Virus record (IMG/VR): IMGVR_UViG_3300010400_000016
Coordinates: 1-41,090 of that record
Length of the DNA: 41,090 nucleotides
Direction: 5' to 3' (one strand)
DNA from: a virus
Made by a program: the position numbers and the translations under genes
Part shown: positions 36,693 through 41,090 of the stretch, piece after piece
Layout of the letters: each line of letters starts with the position of its first letter
How positions within the stretch are numbered: position 1 is the first letter of the stretch
The notes under the pieces: generated by a model
Told to the model about the DNA's origin: nothing
Databases searched by the model: none
Seen by the model: only the letters and a program-made list of their open reading frames with translations

Positions 36693-36884
36693 TTACGGTT
36701 TCGGTGGGACCTTGCGAGGCCGTCCGGTTTTTGGTGGGCGGTGCGGCGCGATGACGATATGGTCGCCCTCGAGCGAGACTTCGACCTGCGAATCGTCCTC
36801 GAGGGCCAGTTGATCCAGGAACGCCCGCGGGAGGATCACGCCTCGAGAGCCGCCAATATTTTGGAGCTTTCTCACAACTGCCAT
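36693..36884 (-). CDS. AbrB/MazE-type DNA-binding protein
   Basis: A 63-aa protein with the swapped-hairpin SpoVT/AbrB pattern: VRKLQNIGGSRGVILPRAFL, then SQVEVSLEGDHIVIAP and a basic tail. Such proteins are antitoxins or transition-state regulators that dimerise on palindromes. No toxin gene is adjacent. A perfect 12-bp palindrome lies 7 nt upstream of its ATG, overlapping its likely -10. Autoregulation, plus control of the divergent rightward promoter, is therefore plausible. With no Shine-Dalgarno and the -10 so close, the mRNA may be leaderless. Confidence 0.8.
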   Translation of the reverse strand: MAVVRKLQNIGGSRGVILPRAFLDQLALEDDSQVEVSLEGDHIVIAPHRPPKTGRPRKVPPKP

Positions 36885-36890
36885 GCCGAG

Positions 36891-36902
36891 AAGTATATAC
36901 TT
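36891..36902. promoter_or_regulatory. Palindromic operator candidate AAGTATATACTT
   Basis: A perfect 12-bp palindrome, flanked by GAG and TTCTC. It covers the leftward -10 and ends 5 nt before the rightward -35. It is the likely binding site of the AbrB-type protein encoded next to it. Confidence 0.65.
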
Positions 36903-36920
36903 TTCTCTTGACAGGCGCAA
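36892..36920 (-). promoter_or_regulatory. Leftward promoter for the AbrB-type gene
   Basis: On the minus strand TTGCGC (36920-36915), a 17-bp spacer and TATACT (36897-36892) fit a sigma70-type promoter. The predicted start lies about at the ATG (36884), implying a leaderless or nearly leaderless transcript. Confidence 0.55.
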
Positions 36921-36936
36921 GGGCAGGGAGTAAGAT
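36908..36936 (+). promoter_or_regulatory. Rightward sigma70-type promoter of the recombination operon
   Basis: TTGACA (36908-36913), exactly 17 bp, then TAAGAT (36931-36936). This is the best promoter match in the window. Transcription would start near 36943, giving a leader of about 130 nt before the ATG at 37075. Confidence 0.8.
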
Positions 36937-36959
36937 TCAGGAAGTCGAGCAGAGCGAGA

Positions 36960-36986
36960 GCGGCCGGTGTTACGAGCACCGACCGC
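36960..36986 (+). ncRNA. First leader hairpin
   Basis: GCGGCCGGTG and CACCGACCGC pair with one mismatch around TTACGAG. It starts about 17 nt after the predicted transcription start of the recombination operon. No U tract follows, so it is not a simple terminator. Confidence 0.55.
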
Positions 36987-37022
36987 CCTCTAACCCGCAA
37001 CCCGAGTAGTAGTCGGACCGCG

Positions 37023-37072
37023 GGCTCCCCGCATCTTAATGGGAGCCTTGCCACCCCGGCAAAAGAGGCTCC
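37023..37072 (+). promoter_or_regulatory. Mutually exclusive leader hairpins over the ribosome binding site
   Basis: Segment 1 GGCTCCC (37023-37029) can pair with segment 2 GGGAGCC (37041-37047). Segment 2 can instead pair with segment 3 GGCTCC (37067-37072), reinforced by TTGCC (37048-37052) with GGCAA (37058-37062). Segment 3 and its bulge contain the Shine-Dalgarno AGAGG (37064-37068) for ATG 37075. The second fold would close the start site and the first would free it. Confidence 0.6.
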
Positions 37073-37074
37073 GC

Positions 37075-37278
37075 ATGATTCCTTCGTTCCTCCGCCCCGA
37101 GCGCATCCCCTACGCGTCGGTCGAGATCATCTCGGACGTCACCTACCTCCTCCACGTCCGTCACCCCCGCGGCACCGAGCAGACGATGGCGTTCACGTCG
37201 GCCTCTAGCCGCGCGCTCGCGCTCATCGCCCTGGTCAAGCAGCCGGTGGACCTGCGCACCTCGGAGGTGACGTCGTGA
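37075..37278 (+). CDS. Small protein leading the recombination operon
   Basis: A 67-aa protein: FLRPERIPYASVEIISDVTY, a beta-rich part LLHVRHPRGT and a C-terminal helix (ASSRALALIALVKQP). The ATG at 37075 is preferred over 37039 because AGAGG lies six bases upstream and 37039 falls inside the leader hairpin. Its initiation is probably controlled by that hairpin. It ends by GTGA overlap with the next gene. Function unknown. Confidence 0.65.
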   Translation: MIPSFLRPERIPYASVEIISDVTYLLHVRHPRGTEQTMAFTSASSRALALIALVKQPVDLRTSEVTS

Positions 37279-37499
37279 GCCGCATCGGCCGGCGCTTCGT
37301 GCCCCAATCGACGATTGACCGCCGCGTGCAGGCGAAGGACGACCGCTACGCGCGCGCGCTGAAGCTCCGCATGGCGAAGGCGGCGCTCGCGGTGGAGCTG
37401 CTGAAGCCGGTCGACGTCGAGCCCGAGCCTGACGATCGCGACGAAGCCTACGGATCCACGTGCGGCGCCAATTGTGGCTATTGCGGGAGGTGCAGCTAA
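37275..37499 (+). CDS. Cys-rich-tail small protein
   Basis: A 74-aa protein from GTG 37275, overlapping the previous stop. Basic and helical in the first half (RYARALKLRMAKAALAVELL), acidic in the middle, and ending with CGANCGYCGRCS, four cysteines in 11 residues, presumably a metal knuckle. It overlaps the ERF gene start (TAATG). Possibly an accessory to the recombination proteins; unproven. Confidence 0.65.
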   Translation: MSRIGRRFVPQSTIDRRVQAKDDRYARALKLRMAKAALAVELLKPVDVEPEPDDRDEAYGSTCGANCGYCGRCS

Positions 37500-38245
37500 T
37501 GGCCAGCCAGGAGCGCGCGATCATCGACGTCACGTCGGACCCGCCGACGGCCCTCGCGCCGGTCGTCCTGCTGTTCGAGCGGCTCGCCGCGAACAAGGAG
37601 ATCGACGTCGCCAAGCTCGAACGCCTGATCGCGATGCAGGAGCACGTCCTCGCGCACGAGGCGCGTGCCGCCTTCAACCGCGCCTTCGCGACGATGCAGG
37701 CGGAGATCCCGACGGTCATCGCCGCGACGCCGGGCGACGGCGGCAAGTGGCTGTATGCGCCGCTCGAGGATATCCAGGACGCCGTCCGCCCGATCCTCGT
37801 CCGGCACGGCTTCGGCCTCAGCTTCCGGACCGAGTGGCCCGACAAAGCGACGATCAAGGTCGTCGGGATCCTGACGCACCGCGACGGGCACGAGCGCACG
37901 AGCGAGTTCCTCGCCGACGCGGACACGAGCGGCAGCAAGAACGCGATCCAGGCGCGCGGCTCGGCCGTCAGCTACGGCCACCGCTACACGACGAAGGATC
38001 TGCTCAACATCACGACGCGCGGCGCCGACGACGACGGGCACACCGCGACGCCGAAGCCGCCGACGACGCATCCGACGGGCTATCTCGGCTGGCTCGACAA
38101 ACTGCGGCAGGCCGCGCAGGAGGGCACGCCGGCGCTCGAGCGCGTCTGGACGGTGTCCGCGCGCGACTGGAAGCAGCATCTGCACCGCACGAACCTCGCG
38201 CTCTGGCTCGAGTTCAAGGCGATCGCCGCCCGGCGGGTGTCATGA
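37499..38245 (+). CDS. erf: ERF-type single-strand annealing protein
   Basis: A 248-aa recombinase of the ERF superfamily, which anneals complementary single strands and, in P22, helps circularise the genome. The family core is visible: FNRAFATMQAEIPTVIAATP, then LYAPLEDIQDAVRPILVRHG, FGLSFRTEW and a Gly/Ser-rich AVSYGHRYTTKDLLNI. The C-terminus is a helical, probably host-interacting region. The exonuclease partner follows directly by ATGA overlap, a classical two-gene recombination module. Confidence 0.88.
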   Translation: MASQERAIIDVTSDPPTALAPVVLLFERLAANKEIDVAKLERLIAMQEHVLAHEARAAFNRAFATMQAEIPTVIAATPGDGGKWLYAPLEDIQDAVRPILVRHGFGLSFRTEWPDKATIKVVGILTHRDGHERTSEFLADADTSGSKNAIQARGSAVSYGHRYTTKDLLNITTRGADDDGHTATPKPPTTHPTGYLGWLDKLRQAAQEGTPALERVWTVSARDWKQHLHRTNLALWLEFKAIAARRVS

Positions 38246-38913
38246 GCCTGACCCTGGTGCCGACGGCGCCGGCGTTCACCGTCGTCGACGCCCCGCAGCG
38301 ATCGCCTGAGTGGTTCGCCGCGCGGCTCGGCCGCCTGACCGGCTCGCGCGCCGGCGACATGATGGCCACCATCAAGAGCGGGGAAGCCGCCAGCCGCCGC
38401 GATCTCCGGCTGCAGCTCGTGCTCGAGCGCCTGACCGGGACGGTCCAGGACGACGGGTATGTGAGCGCCGACATGCGCCGCGGCATCGCGCGGGAACCGG
38501 CCGCCCTCGCCGCCTACGAGGTCGCGACCGGGCACCTGGTGCAGACGACCGGGTTCCTGCAGCACGACACGCTGCCGGCGGGGTGTTCGCTCGACGGGCA
38601 CGTCGGCGCCTTCGCCGGCGTCGTCGAAGTGAAGTGCCCGAAGAGCGCGACGCATCTGCGCTACCTGACCGCCGGCACGGCGCCGCCGGACTGCCTCCCG
38701 CAGCTGGTGCATGCGCTCTGGGTCACCGGGGCGGCGTGGGTCGATTTCGTCAGCTTCGACGACCGCTTCCCGCCGGCGCTGCAGCTGTTCGTCGTGCGCT
38801 ATCACCGGAACGCCGAGGAGATCGCGACCTACGCGAAGGTCGTCGCCGTGTTCCTCGCGGAAGTGGACGCGGAGCTGGCGCTCGTCACGGGACTCCGGCA
38901 GGCGGCGGCATGA
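38242..38913 (+). CDS. YqaJ-type (lambda-exonuclease-like) recombination nuclease
   Basis: A 223-aa nuclease expected to resect 5' strands to make ends for the ERF protein. Motifs fit YqaJ: QRSPEWFAARLGRLTGSRAG (19-38), IAREPAALAAYE (Glu85), CSLDGHV (Asp118), VVEVKCPKSATH (Glu129 and Lys131) and LPQLVHALWVTGAAW (Gln154). All expected catalytic acids and the lysine are present. It is coupled to the neighbouring genes by ATGA overlaps. Confidence 0.9.
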   Translation: MSLTLVPTAPAFTVVDAPQRSPEWFAARLGRLTGSRAGDMMATIKSGEAASRRDLRLQLVLERLTGTVQDDGYVSADMRRGIAREPAALAAYEVATGHLVQTTGFLQHDTLPAGCSLDGHVGAFAGVVEVKCPKSATHLRYLTAGTAPPDCLPQLVHALWVTGAAWVDFVSFDDRFPPALQLFVVRYHRNAEEIATYAKVVAVFLAEVDAELALVTGLRQAAA

Positions 38914-39723: not shown

Positions 39724-39856
39724 ACGGAACCTCCTGAAGGCAGACCGCGGGCGATGCGGCCGTCGATCGGGCAGTGTACACCCGCCGGGTAAGGGCGAAA
39801 CCCGACCATGTGACCTTACCGTCGAATAAATTCAGGCGTCTTTGGGCCATCTGCGC
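39724..39856. other. Gap between the orphan gene and att core (P arm)
   Basis: 133 bp without a gene. It holds two arm-like sites (39788-39794 inverted, 39813-39821) and a short A+T-rich stretch (GAATAAATTCAGG) typical of attP arms. Confidence 0.55.
39788..39820. repeat. Integrase arm-type sites, P side
   Basis: GGTAAGG (39788-39794) and its inverse CCTTACC (39814-39820). The longer ACCTTACCG (39813-39821) recurs on the other side of the core. Confidence 0.6.
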
Positions 39857-39906
39857 GCAGCCTCCGGAGCTGTAGGCCACAGGTTCGAATCCTGTCGGGC
39901 GCACCA
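39857..39906 (+). other. attP: attP core: 3' end of tRNA-Arg(CCG)
   Basis: The sequence folds as the 3' half of a tRNA. Anticodon stem GCAGC/GCTGT encloses loop CTCCGGA (U33, anticodon CCG, G37). A five-base variable loop AGGCC follows, then the T arm ACAGG-TTCGAAT-CCTGT, the acceptor strand CGGGCGC, A and CCA. No D arm or 5' half precedes it, so it is not a functional tRNA gene. Phages that integrate into tRNA genes carry exactly such a fragment, to restore the host tRNA after integration. Confidence 0.85.
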
Positions 39907-39920
39907 CATTCCCTCAGTCA

Positions 39921-41090
39921 TCATCGGCCTCGACGATGTGGTGTCCGGACACCACCGGACGGTGTGCGGGGCGAAACCTTACCGCGCACCTTACCGGCTG
40001 GCCGCCGGCGCGCCGCCAATCGCGCGGCTCGCGCGACGGCCGACAGCTCGGTGACCGACTCGACCTGGTGCTCCTGGATGGCGGCCATCGCGTAGCGGGC
40101 GCTCTGCTCGATGTCGGTGTGGCCCATCAGGTCCTGCACGAGCTTCAGATTCTTCGTCAGGCGGAACACTTCGGTGCCGAAGGTGTGCCGCGTCAAATCG
40201 TACGGGCGCAGCGTCTCGGGAATGAGCGGGAGCTCGGCGCGCGCGCGGGCCTTGTTCGCGGCCTTGATCGCGCGCTTCACCGAGCGGCGCAGCGACGAGC
40301 TCGAGAACTTCGTGTTCGCGCCCATCGCGAAGAAGCGCCGCAGCACCGGCACCGCGGCCGGCATCAGCTGCCGCGGCTTCACCTGGCGACGAGCTCGCGC
40401 CCGTCTCGAGCGTCGCCCCTTCAAGCGCTTCGGCGGCACGACCGACGGTGCGTCCCAGTTGACGTGTTCTGGCTGCAGCATCCCGAGCTGCTTGGCGGGG
40501 AAGCCGGTCATGATCATCGCTTCGAACCGGATCCGACTGAGCGAGCCGGCCTCGTGCGTGCCGCCCTTCTTCGGCGTCGTGATGTCCGGCATGAACGAGA
40601 GGATCTCGTACGCGAGCGCGAACGACTGACCTCGCGGCGCGACGTCGGGCGGCTCCACTTCATCCACTTCACGAACCGGGTTCTCCGCGTCCTTGCCGTA
40701 CAGGACGGTGAACAGGTTCTCGAGCGCGCGCATGCGCTGATTCACGGACGACGCGGAGAGCGGGATCGCGCGGGCTTCGAAGCGCGCCTTCTCGCCGGGC
40801 GGTTTCACGAGCACGTGCTTCGGCCCGACGGTCAACCAGCGGTCGCGCTGCGCGCGGATCGCGTGCGGCTGAATCTCGCGCGTCGGCTGTTCGCCGAAGA
40901 GCGCCGCCCATTCGCGAATGTGGCGGCGCCGATCCTTGATCCCCGGCATCGCGGTGACCGTCTCGAGGTAGCGCTCGGCGTCGGCGAGGAACCCTTCACC
41001 AACGGGGACCTGGTCGTCGGCCTGGCGGCGCCGCGCGGCGACCCGTTGATCCTCGCGCCAGTGCACGGCCTCGGTGACGGTCGGCTCGTA
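39921..41090 (-). CDS. int: Tyrosine integrase (main part; N-terminus continues at 252-1)
   Basis: The 432-aa site-specific recombinase reads from 252 down through the circular join to 39921. After the arm-binding N-terminus comes a SAM-like core-binding domain (residues ~75-185) and the catalytic domain. Visible catalytic residues are DLTRHTFGTEV (Arg344), LMGHTD (His367) and ARYA (Tyr376 nucleophile). The first catalytic arginine is not in its usual place: the motif reads TGFPAKQLGML instead of TGxR. The gene lies 14 bp from the tRNA-Arg attachment core and two arm sites lie inside its 3' end, the standard int-attP layout. Confidence 0.92.
   Translation of the reverse strand, partial: YEPTVTEAVHWREDQRVAARRRQADDQVPVGEGFLADAERYLETVTAMPGIKDRRRHIREWAALFGEQPTREIQPHAIRAQRDRWLTVGPKHVLVKPPGEKARFEARAIPLSASSVNQRMRALENLFTVLYGKDAENPVREVDEVEPPDVAPRGQSFALAYEILSFMPDITTPKKGGTHEAGSLSRIRFEAMIMTGFPAKQLGMLQPEHVNWDAPSVVPPKRLKGRRSRRARARRQVKPRQLMPAAVPVLRRFFAMGANTKFSSSSLRRSVKRAIKAANKARARAELPLIPETLRPYDLTRHTFGTEVFRLTKNLKLVQDLMGHTDIEQSARYAMAAIQEHQVESVTELSAVARAARLAARRRPAGKVRGKVSPRTPSGGVRTPHRRGR
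39976..39996. repeat. Integrase arm-type sites, P' side
   Basis: ACCTTACCG occurs at 39976-39984 and 39988-39996 (12-bp period), inside the 3' end of int. With the two sites at 39788-39820 they bracket the att core. Confidence 0.65.
40968..41090. repeat. Right copy of the 123-bp terminal direct repeat
   Basis: Identical to 1-123; see the left copy. Inside the integrase coding sequence. Confidence 0.95.

Follow-up and report, generated by a model that had tools for sequence, protein, structure and literature searches.

What the structured leader in front of a set of phage recombination genes does is the question raised by this locus. The window, by which we mean the whole stretch of 41,090 bases analysed, is a virus record, and the initial annotation had described the leader as a possible RNA switch, either a translational riboregulator or a protein-responsive element of no class known. 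We suggest that an early recombination operon has this leader as its 5' untranslated region and is, with high probability, controlled in cis by an antisense RNA of the RSF1010 RepX kind.

The operon and its leader

The first gene of the operon encodes a 67 aa protein without any Pfam match, the second, lying between this gene and the ERF gene, a 74 aa protein (Table 1). Searches for relatives of these two proteins found little, although the search with the 74 aa protein led by way of a weak relative to L004, where the operon leader is 74% identical to that of the window and the first gene is different. As an integrase-family gene is present, the phage is probably temperate.

The operon promoter matches the consensus at 10 of 12 positions, where shuffles in the promoter scan expect 0.1, and the promoter of L330 is nearly identical to it. 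The mRNA start that it predicts agrees with the leader of about 130 nt claimed in the initial annotation, and the hairpin noted near the 5' end is recovered as P1. Folding of the leader was better than in all of 200 dinucleotide shuffles (z -4.0). The three complementary segments are likewise present in the sequence as described, and a 6 nt arrangement in which segment 1 equals segment 3 and segment 2 is complementary arose in only 7 of 2000 shuffles of the second half of the leader.

Table 1. Features of the recombination operon, its leader and the opposite strand, in window coordinates
Feature	Position	Strand	Details and basis
MazE/AbrB-like gene, divergent from the operon	36693-36920	-	Pfam
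Operon promoter	36908-36936	+	TTGACA-17-TAAGAT, sigma-70-like; mRNA start expected near 36943
Predicted antisense RNA, about 76-80 nt	36946-37026	-	Begins AGCCCGCGG at 37026; 3' end not fixed
P1, first hairpin of the mRNA leader	36956-36990	+	Core GGUG-UUACGAG-CACC; proposed target of the antisense RNA
Linker CTAACCC	36990-36996	+	Fits conserved CUNACC; kept in alignments A2 and A4
P2, second hairpin of the target domain	36994-37024	+	CCCGC...GCGGG, inner CCGA/UCGG; from folding
Segment 1, GGCTCCC (RNA GGCUCCC)	37023-37029	+	Sequence; kept in six phages
Predicted antisense promoter	37033-37062	-	-35 TTGCCG 37062-37057, 18 nt spacer, -10 TAAGAT 37038-37033, start 6 nt on
Segment 2, GGGAGCC	37041-37047	+	Sequence; pairs with segment 1 or segment 3
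Shine-Dalgarno (SD) site and segment 3, overlapping	37063-37072	+	AAGAGG 37063-37068, GGCTCC 37067-37072; sequence
First operon gene, 67 aa, function unknown	37075-37278	+	ORF, ATG at 37075; partial relatives in L330 and L157
ERF-family single-strand annealing protein	37499-38245	+	Pfam PF04404, E 1.3e-15; controlled operon
YqaJ-like exonuclease	38242-38913	+	Pfam PF09588, E 1.5e-23; controlled operon
Integrase-family gene	40080-40331	-	

Conservation of the long leader in six phages

The long leader was compared in six phages, namely the window, L330, L310, L168, L004 and L157. All three segments were found again in the other five, with changes that mostly preserve both pairings. In L004 a C inserted in segment 2 is matched by a G inserted in segment 3, a G-C pair of the segment 1:2 helix has become A-U in L157, and L330 and L310 retain seven of the eight 1:2 pairs despite changes. 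In each of the six folded leaders the two G of the SD are base-paired. When partners were swapped, 34 of 720 permutations matched or beat the own partners for the 1:2 pairing and 48 of 720 for the 2:3 pairing, which points to a modest preference for own partners in both cases.

The loop of P1 reads UUACGAG in the window and CUGAUAA in L330, though the sequences around P1 are almost identical. This is the kind of difference that specificity changes between antisense systems would produce.

A predicted antisense RNA

The minus strand of all six leaders carries a common antisense -10 and start, TANNNT followed by 6 nt and AGC(C/T)CG, in which the middle of the -10 is variable; the window version is TAAGAT, 6 nt and AGCCCG. 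The antisense -35 varies among the six and is weak in L310 and L168, and simple promoter and terminator scans of the window detected neither an antisense promoter nor a terminator. The predicted start sits 37 nt upstream of the SD.

An RNA from this start is predicted to form two unbroken 14 bp hairpins with the 7 nt loops CUACUAC and CUCGUAA, joined by a spacer that contains GGUUAG, the complement of the linker. Its folding energy is -47.8 kcal/mol (z -5.13) against -36.1 for the mRNA strand, and all 28 window pairs are of standard type on the antisense strand compared with 22 on the sense strand. Over the six phages 96.9% of the cells in the antisense hairpins hold standard pairs, and 11 cells show double changes where shuffles give 3.4. 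The covariation of these hairpins is strong; that of P2 is seen on the antisense strand, as helix 1 of the alignment. The G-U pairs at columns 10-28 and 46-64 are kept in all six phages on the antisense strand and are C-A mismatches in the mRNA. The predicted RNA extends exactly as far as GGGCU of segment 1, so that the first four bases of segment 1 lie under it.

We favour the antisense over the sense reading since only the minus strand has the conserved G-U pairs, the antisense -10 is fixed in place and the antisense hairpins are the stabler ones.

A module widespread in phages and Streptomyces

The exact core GGTGTTANNAGCACCGACC was found in 14 viral and 15 bacterial stretches, and looser patterns yielded further copies. 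Many copies of the core have other but complementary outer stems, followed by CTNACC and, some 55 nt further, by a start codon, and the architecture of the module can be given as a hairpin, CUNACC, a hairpin around the SD and AUGGCU. The outer stem covaries, with 66 double-change cells in 40 aligned copies compared with 30 in shuffles.

A covariance model, R1, was made from pattern-picked sequences; its E-values are rough, its GGTG/CACC core was set by the search patterns, and the loci were partly picked by eye. With these limits, R1 scores P1 of the window at 57.2 bits (E 7.3e-12), recovered a copy with an altered core pair, AGUG/CACU (L013), and at E <=1e-4 matches 34 of 121 Streptomyces genomes. 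Strong copies usually occur once per record in the phages checked. According to Pfam and PHROGs the genes that follow encode HNH, GIY-YIG and MUG113/T5orf172 endonucleases, integrases and an MT-A70 methylase, and many are unknown. Many of the Streptomyces copies (L283 and L291-L309) precede an uncharacterised gene family with a PGYGKRSAP motif (MA...PGYGKRSAPD). In cluster F mycobacteriophages the element falls inside the annotated gp75 of Ramsey, and BLAST of the short hairpins against phages gave few matches outside this cluster.

In the short leaders the stretch from CUNACC to the start codon folds as an SD hairpin (mean z -1.18 over 56 loci, Stouffer -8.8, first-codon control 0.02); in this test the related Streptomyces loci are not independent and the phages are diverse. 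No account of the module in phages was found in the literature searched, which was largely open-access, and the module has apparently gone unnoticed so far.

The short types carry strand-specific signals of the same kind as the six long leaders. In 33 of 54 loci an antisense -10, ANNNTA on the coding strand, stands at gene position +14 or +13, other positions giving 0-3; outside Streptomyces the count is 15 of 31, with a background of 1% per position. The antisense strand folds better than the sense strand at 52 of the 54 loci, by a mean of -8.6 kcal/mol (p 2e-10), and at 29 of 31 outside Streptomyces, because its G-U pairs are C-A mismatches in the mRNA. The sequence after the antisense P1 hairpin is U-rich (0.45 vs 0.20, p 2e-11). 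The second hairpin aligned poorly on this strand. A short-type antisense RNA starting at AGCCAU would explain the conserved AUGGCU. As the GGCU of this AUGGCU corresponds to the GGGCU of segment 1, we take the window to have the same target domain with the gene start further downstream.

Comparison with known antisense systems

RepX of RSF1010 is a 75 nt RNA with two stem-loops separated by the spacer GUUA; it overlaps repA-repC at the ribosome binding site and start, and copy number goes up when it is mutated (PMC8136791). The Rfam family RF00043 (R1162), which precedes repA of IncQ plasmids, has the consensus of a hairpin, CCUAACCA, an SD hairpin and AUGGCU. R1 detects the IncQ1 leader at 26.3 bits, and RSF1010 repA has ANNNTA at +14. 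The window resembles this system in its target leader, with a hairpin, a CUAACC linker and a second hairpin, and in a predicted antisense RNA of about 75 nt that forms two stem-loops, their loops of 7 nt, and in which GUUA lies within the stretch joining the two 14 bp hairpins. The AGCC start with the antisense -10 some 6-7 nt before it holds for the window too, with the like in the other five leaders. What the sequence shows is the fold of the antisense RNA into two hairpins that covary, its conserved -10 and start, and the architecture in common with IncQ plasmids; by sequence the antisense control is well supported.

The differences are that the window operon serves phage recombination (ERF and YqaJ) instead of plasmid replication, that the predicted antisense promoter and start are inside the leader and not at the gene start, so that the RNA does not reach the SD, and that the three-segment region follows the target domain. 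Further, the RF00043 model gave no match in the window, neither at gathering nor at E up to 10, and L004 reached 21.7 bits where the cutoff is 55, hence we regard the window as a variant and not as a member of the RepX family.

The second Rfam family of interest is PtaRNA1 (RF01811), annotated as an antitoxin; the window gave no match to this model either, and no function is known for its first gene. The likeness, an antisense strand of equal architecture, comes through L264. A search of L264, a phage copy of the module, against all of Rfam gave RF01811 on the gene's minus strand (E 1.6e-7, 41.3 bits) and RF00043 in the mRNA orientation (E 6.6e-6, 39 bits), both short of their gathering scores, which are 47 and 55 bits respectively. 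These are hits to one locus, L264:6421-6499, on opposite strands, by two families that Rfam holds as unrelated, with no clan, which suggests that RF00043 and RF01811 are one family.

FinP, which acts on traJ in F-like plasmids, is also a cis-antisense RNA of two stem-loops over a leader, but its sequence and spacer are unlike those of the window. FinO binds FinP as well as RepX (PMC8136791). No protein with a FinO/ProQ domain was found in this phage record. In attenuators of the pT181 kind an antisense RNA chooses between alternative leader structures, and in the phage controls c4 (P1/P7) and sar (P22) an antisense RNA silences a phage gene. These controls work through transcription termination or have another RNA architecture than that of the window; the likeness, compared by mechanism, lies in the way of working. 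PMC12197685 lists the papers on c4 and P22.

Proposed mechanism and alternative explanations

We propose that transcription of the minus strand from 37026, within the leader, gives a short antisense RNA with two hairpins, and that the loops of these would meet the complementary loops of P1 and P2 in the mRNA. Once bound, it would cover GGGCU of segment 1, leaving segment 2 to pair with segment 3 and thereby hide the SD. When the antisense RNA is missing, segment 1 may be the first to capture segment 2 as the leader is transcribed, and the SD would stay free. In the ordinary, short members of the module the antisense RNA would cover the SD directly. We infer that the antisense RNA is transcribed and that its pairing represses translation, and the relay through the three segments to the SD is put forward on the same footing.

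When the leader was folded with its antisense-bound part set aside, the 2:3 form appeared in most of the six phages and the last two SD bases were paired in all. In most of these phages the free leader at equilibrium also prefers the 2:3 form, which hides the SD, so the relay must rely on folding kinetics. For this reason, and as the permutation tests are modest, we make the claim of antisense control strongly and that of the relay with less assurance. The same equilibrium favours an explanation that opposes the relay and keeps the antisense RNA, in which simple duplex formation leads to RNase III cleavage or steric block and the segments are merely a constitutive SD hairpin and an antisense promoter. 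It gains from the SD hairpins of the short types and from the antisense start and -10, which partly account for the conservation of the segment 1-2 region; it does not explain why L157 keeps the 1:2 pairing by double changes, why own partners are preferred for 1:2 in the swaps, or why L330 and L310 hold on to most 1:2 pairs. We consider this explanation a real though less probable contender. The chances seem to us about even for the fuller reading, in which the window is a phage RepX variant with the antisense promoter inside the leader and a three-segment relay to a distant SD, and one member of a large unrecognised superfamily that joins RF00043 and RF01811 and regulates homing endonucleases, integrases, methylases and recombination operons in phages, Streptomyces and IncQ plasmids.

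The translational switch on the recombination operon postulated in the initial annotation is borne out insofar as the alternative hairpins and the occlusion of the SD are conserved. The class can now be named, as the conserved part appears to serve a cis-encoded antisense RNA of the R1162/RepX kind both as target and as template, and we abandon the protein-responsive element, since nothing indicates a protein or ligand sensor and the mRNA strand is without aptamer-like conservation. A stand-alone riboswitch or protein-responsive leader, with P1 and P2 binding the ligand or protein, the segments switching the SD and no antisense RNA involved, could account for the leader fold and for alternative hairpins, one holding the SD, in six phages. 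We find it unlikely, as conserved C-A mismatches in the mRNA hairpins read as G-U pairs on the opposite strand, the antisense -10 has a fixed place, the loops vary as antisense partners should and unlike an aptamer, and there is no Rfam aptamer match. Still less credible is a DNA element, an operator or recombination site with no role as RNA: the core is near-palindromic and both loop orientations occur, but the element has a single orientation before the start codon and a fixed spacing to CUNACC, the SD hairpin and the antisense -10, its outer stems covary, and its G-U pairs are asymmetric between the strands.

Several other readings of the module hairpin were rejected. A new riboswitch or protein-binding hairpin fails on the missing aptamer-like conservation and the mismatch pattern of the mRNA strand, an anticodon-loop mimic on the variable loop bases, and a motif specific for homing endonucleases on the fact that endonucleases make up only about a third of the genes downstream. 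The idea of a stabiliser of the 5' end or a standby site was dropped as well, and base-pairing between the P1 loop and the CUNACC linker, judged by eye, found no support.

If the fuller reading is true, many phages and integrated elements would share an RNA device that keeps selfish or early genes quiet, in parallel with IncQ plasmids holding down their replication. It predicts a short RNA, with its start site and loops, at dozens of loci, such as mycobacteriophage Ramsey and many Streptomyces, which can be checked in existing RNA-seq.

Further observations

A tRNA gene match at 39836-39903 (30.5 bits) lies downstream of the recombination genes and near the integrase, and may mark the attachment site. 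The promoters of L004 (2270-2290), L310 and L005 contain a TACAGCATTGCTGTA-like inverted repeat near the -10, likely a repressor operator; the window is without such a repeat and has the palindrome AGTATATACT near the divergent AbrB-like gene. In three Firmicutes-like contigs (L178, L182 and L224) a related hairpin stands before integrase genes, and its minus strand ends in a T run that resembles the terminator of an antisense RNA. In Mycobacterium phage Ramsey (L274:1144-1266) the gp75 ORF spans the hairpin element between gp74 and gp76, and the annotated gp75 is probably not a true gene.
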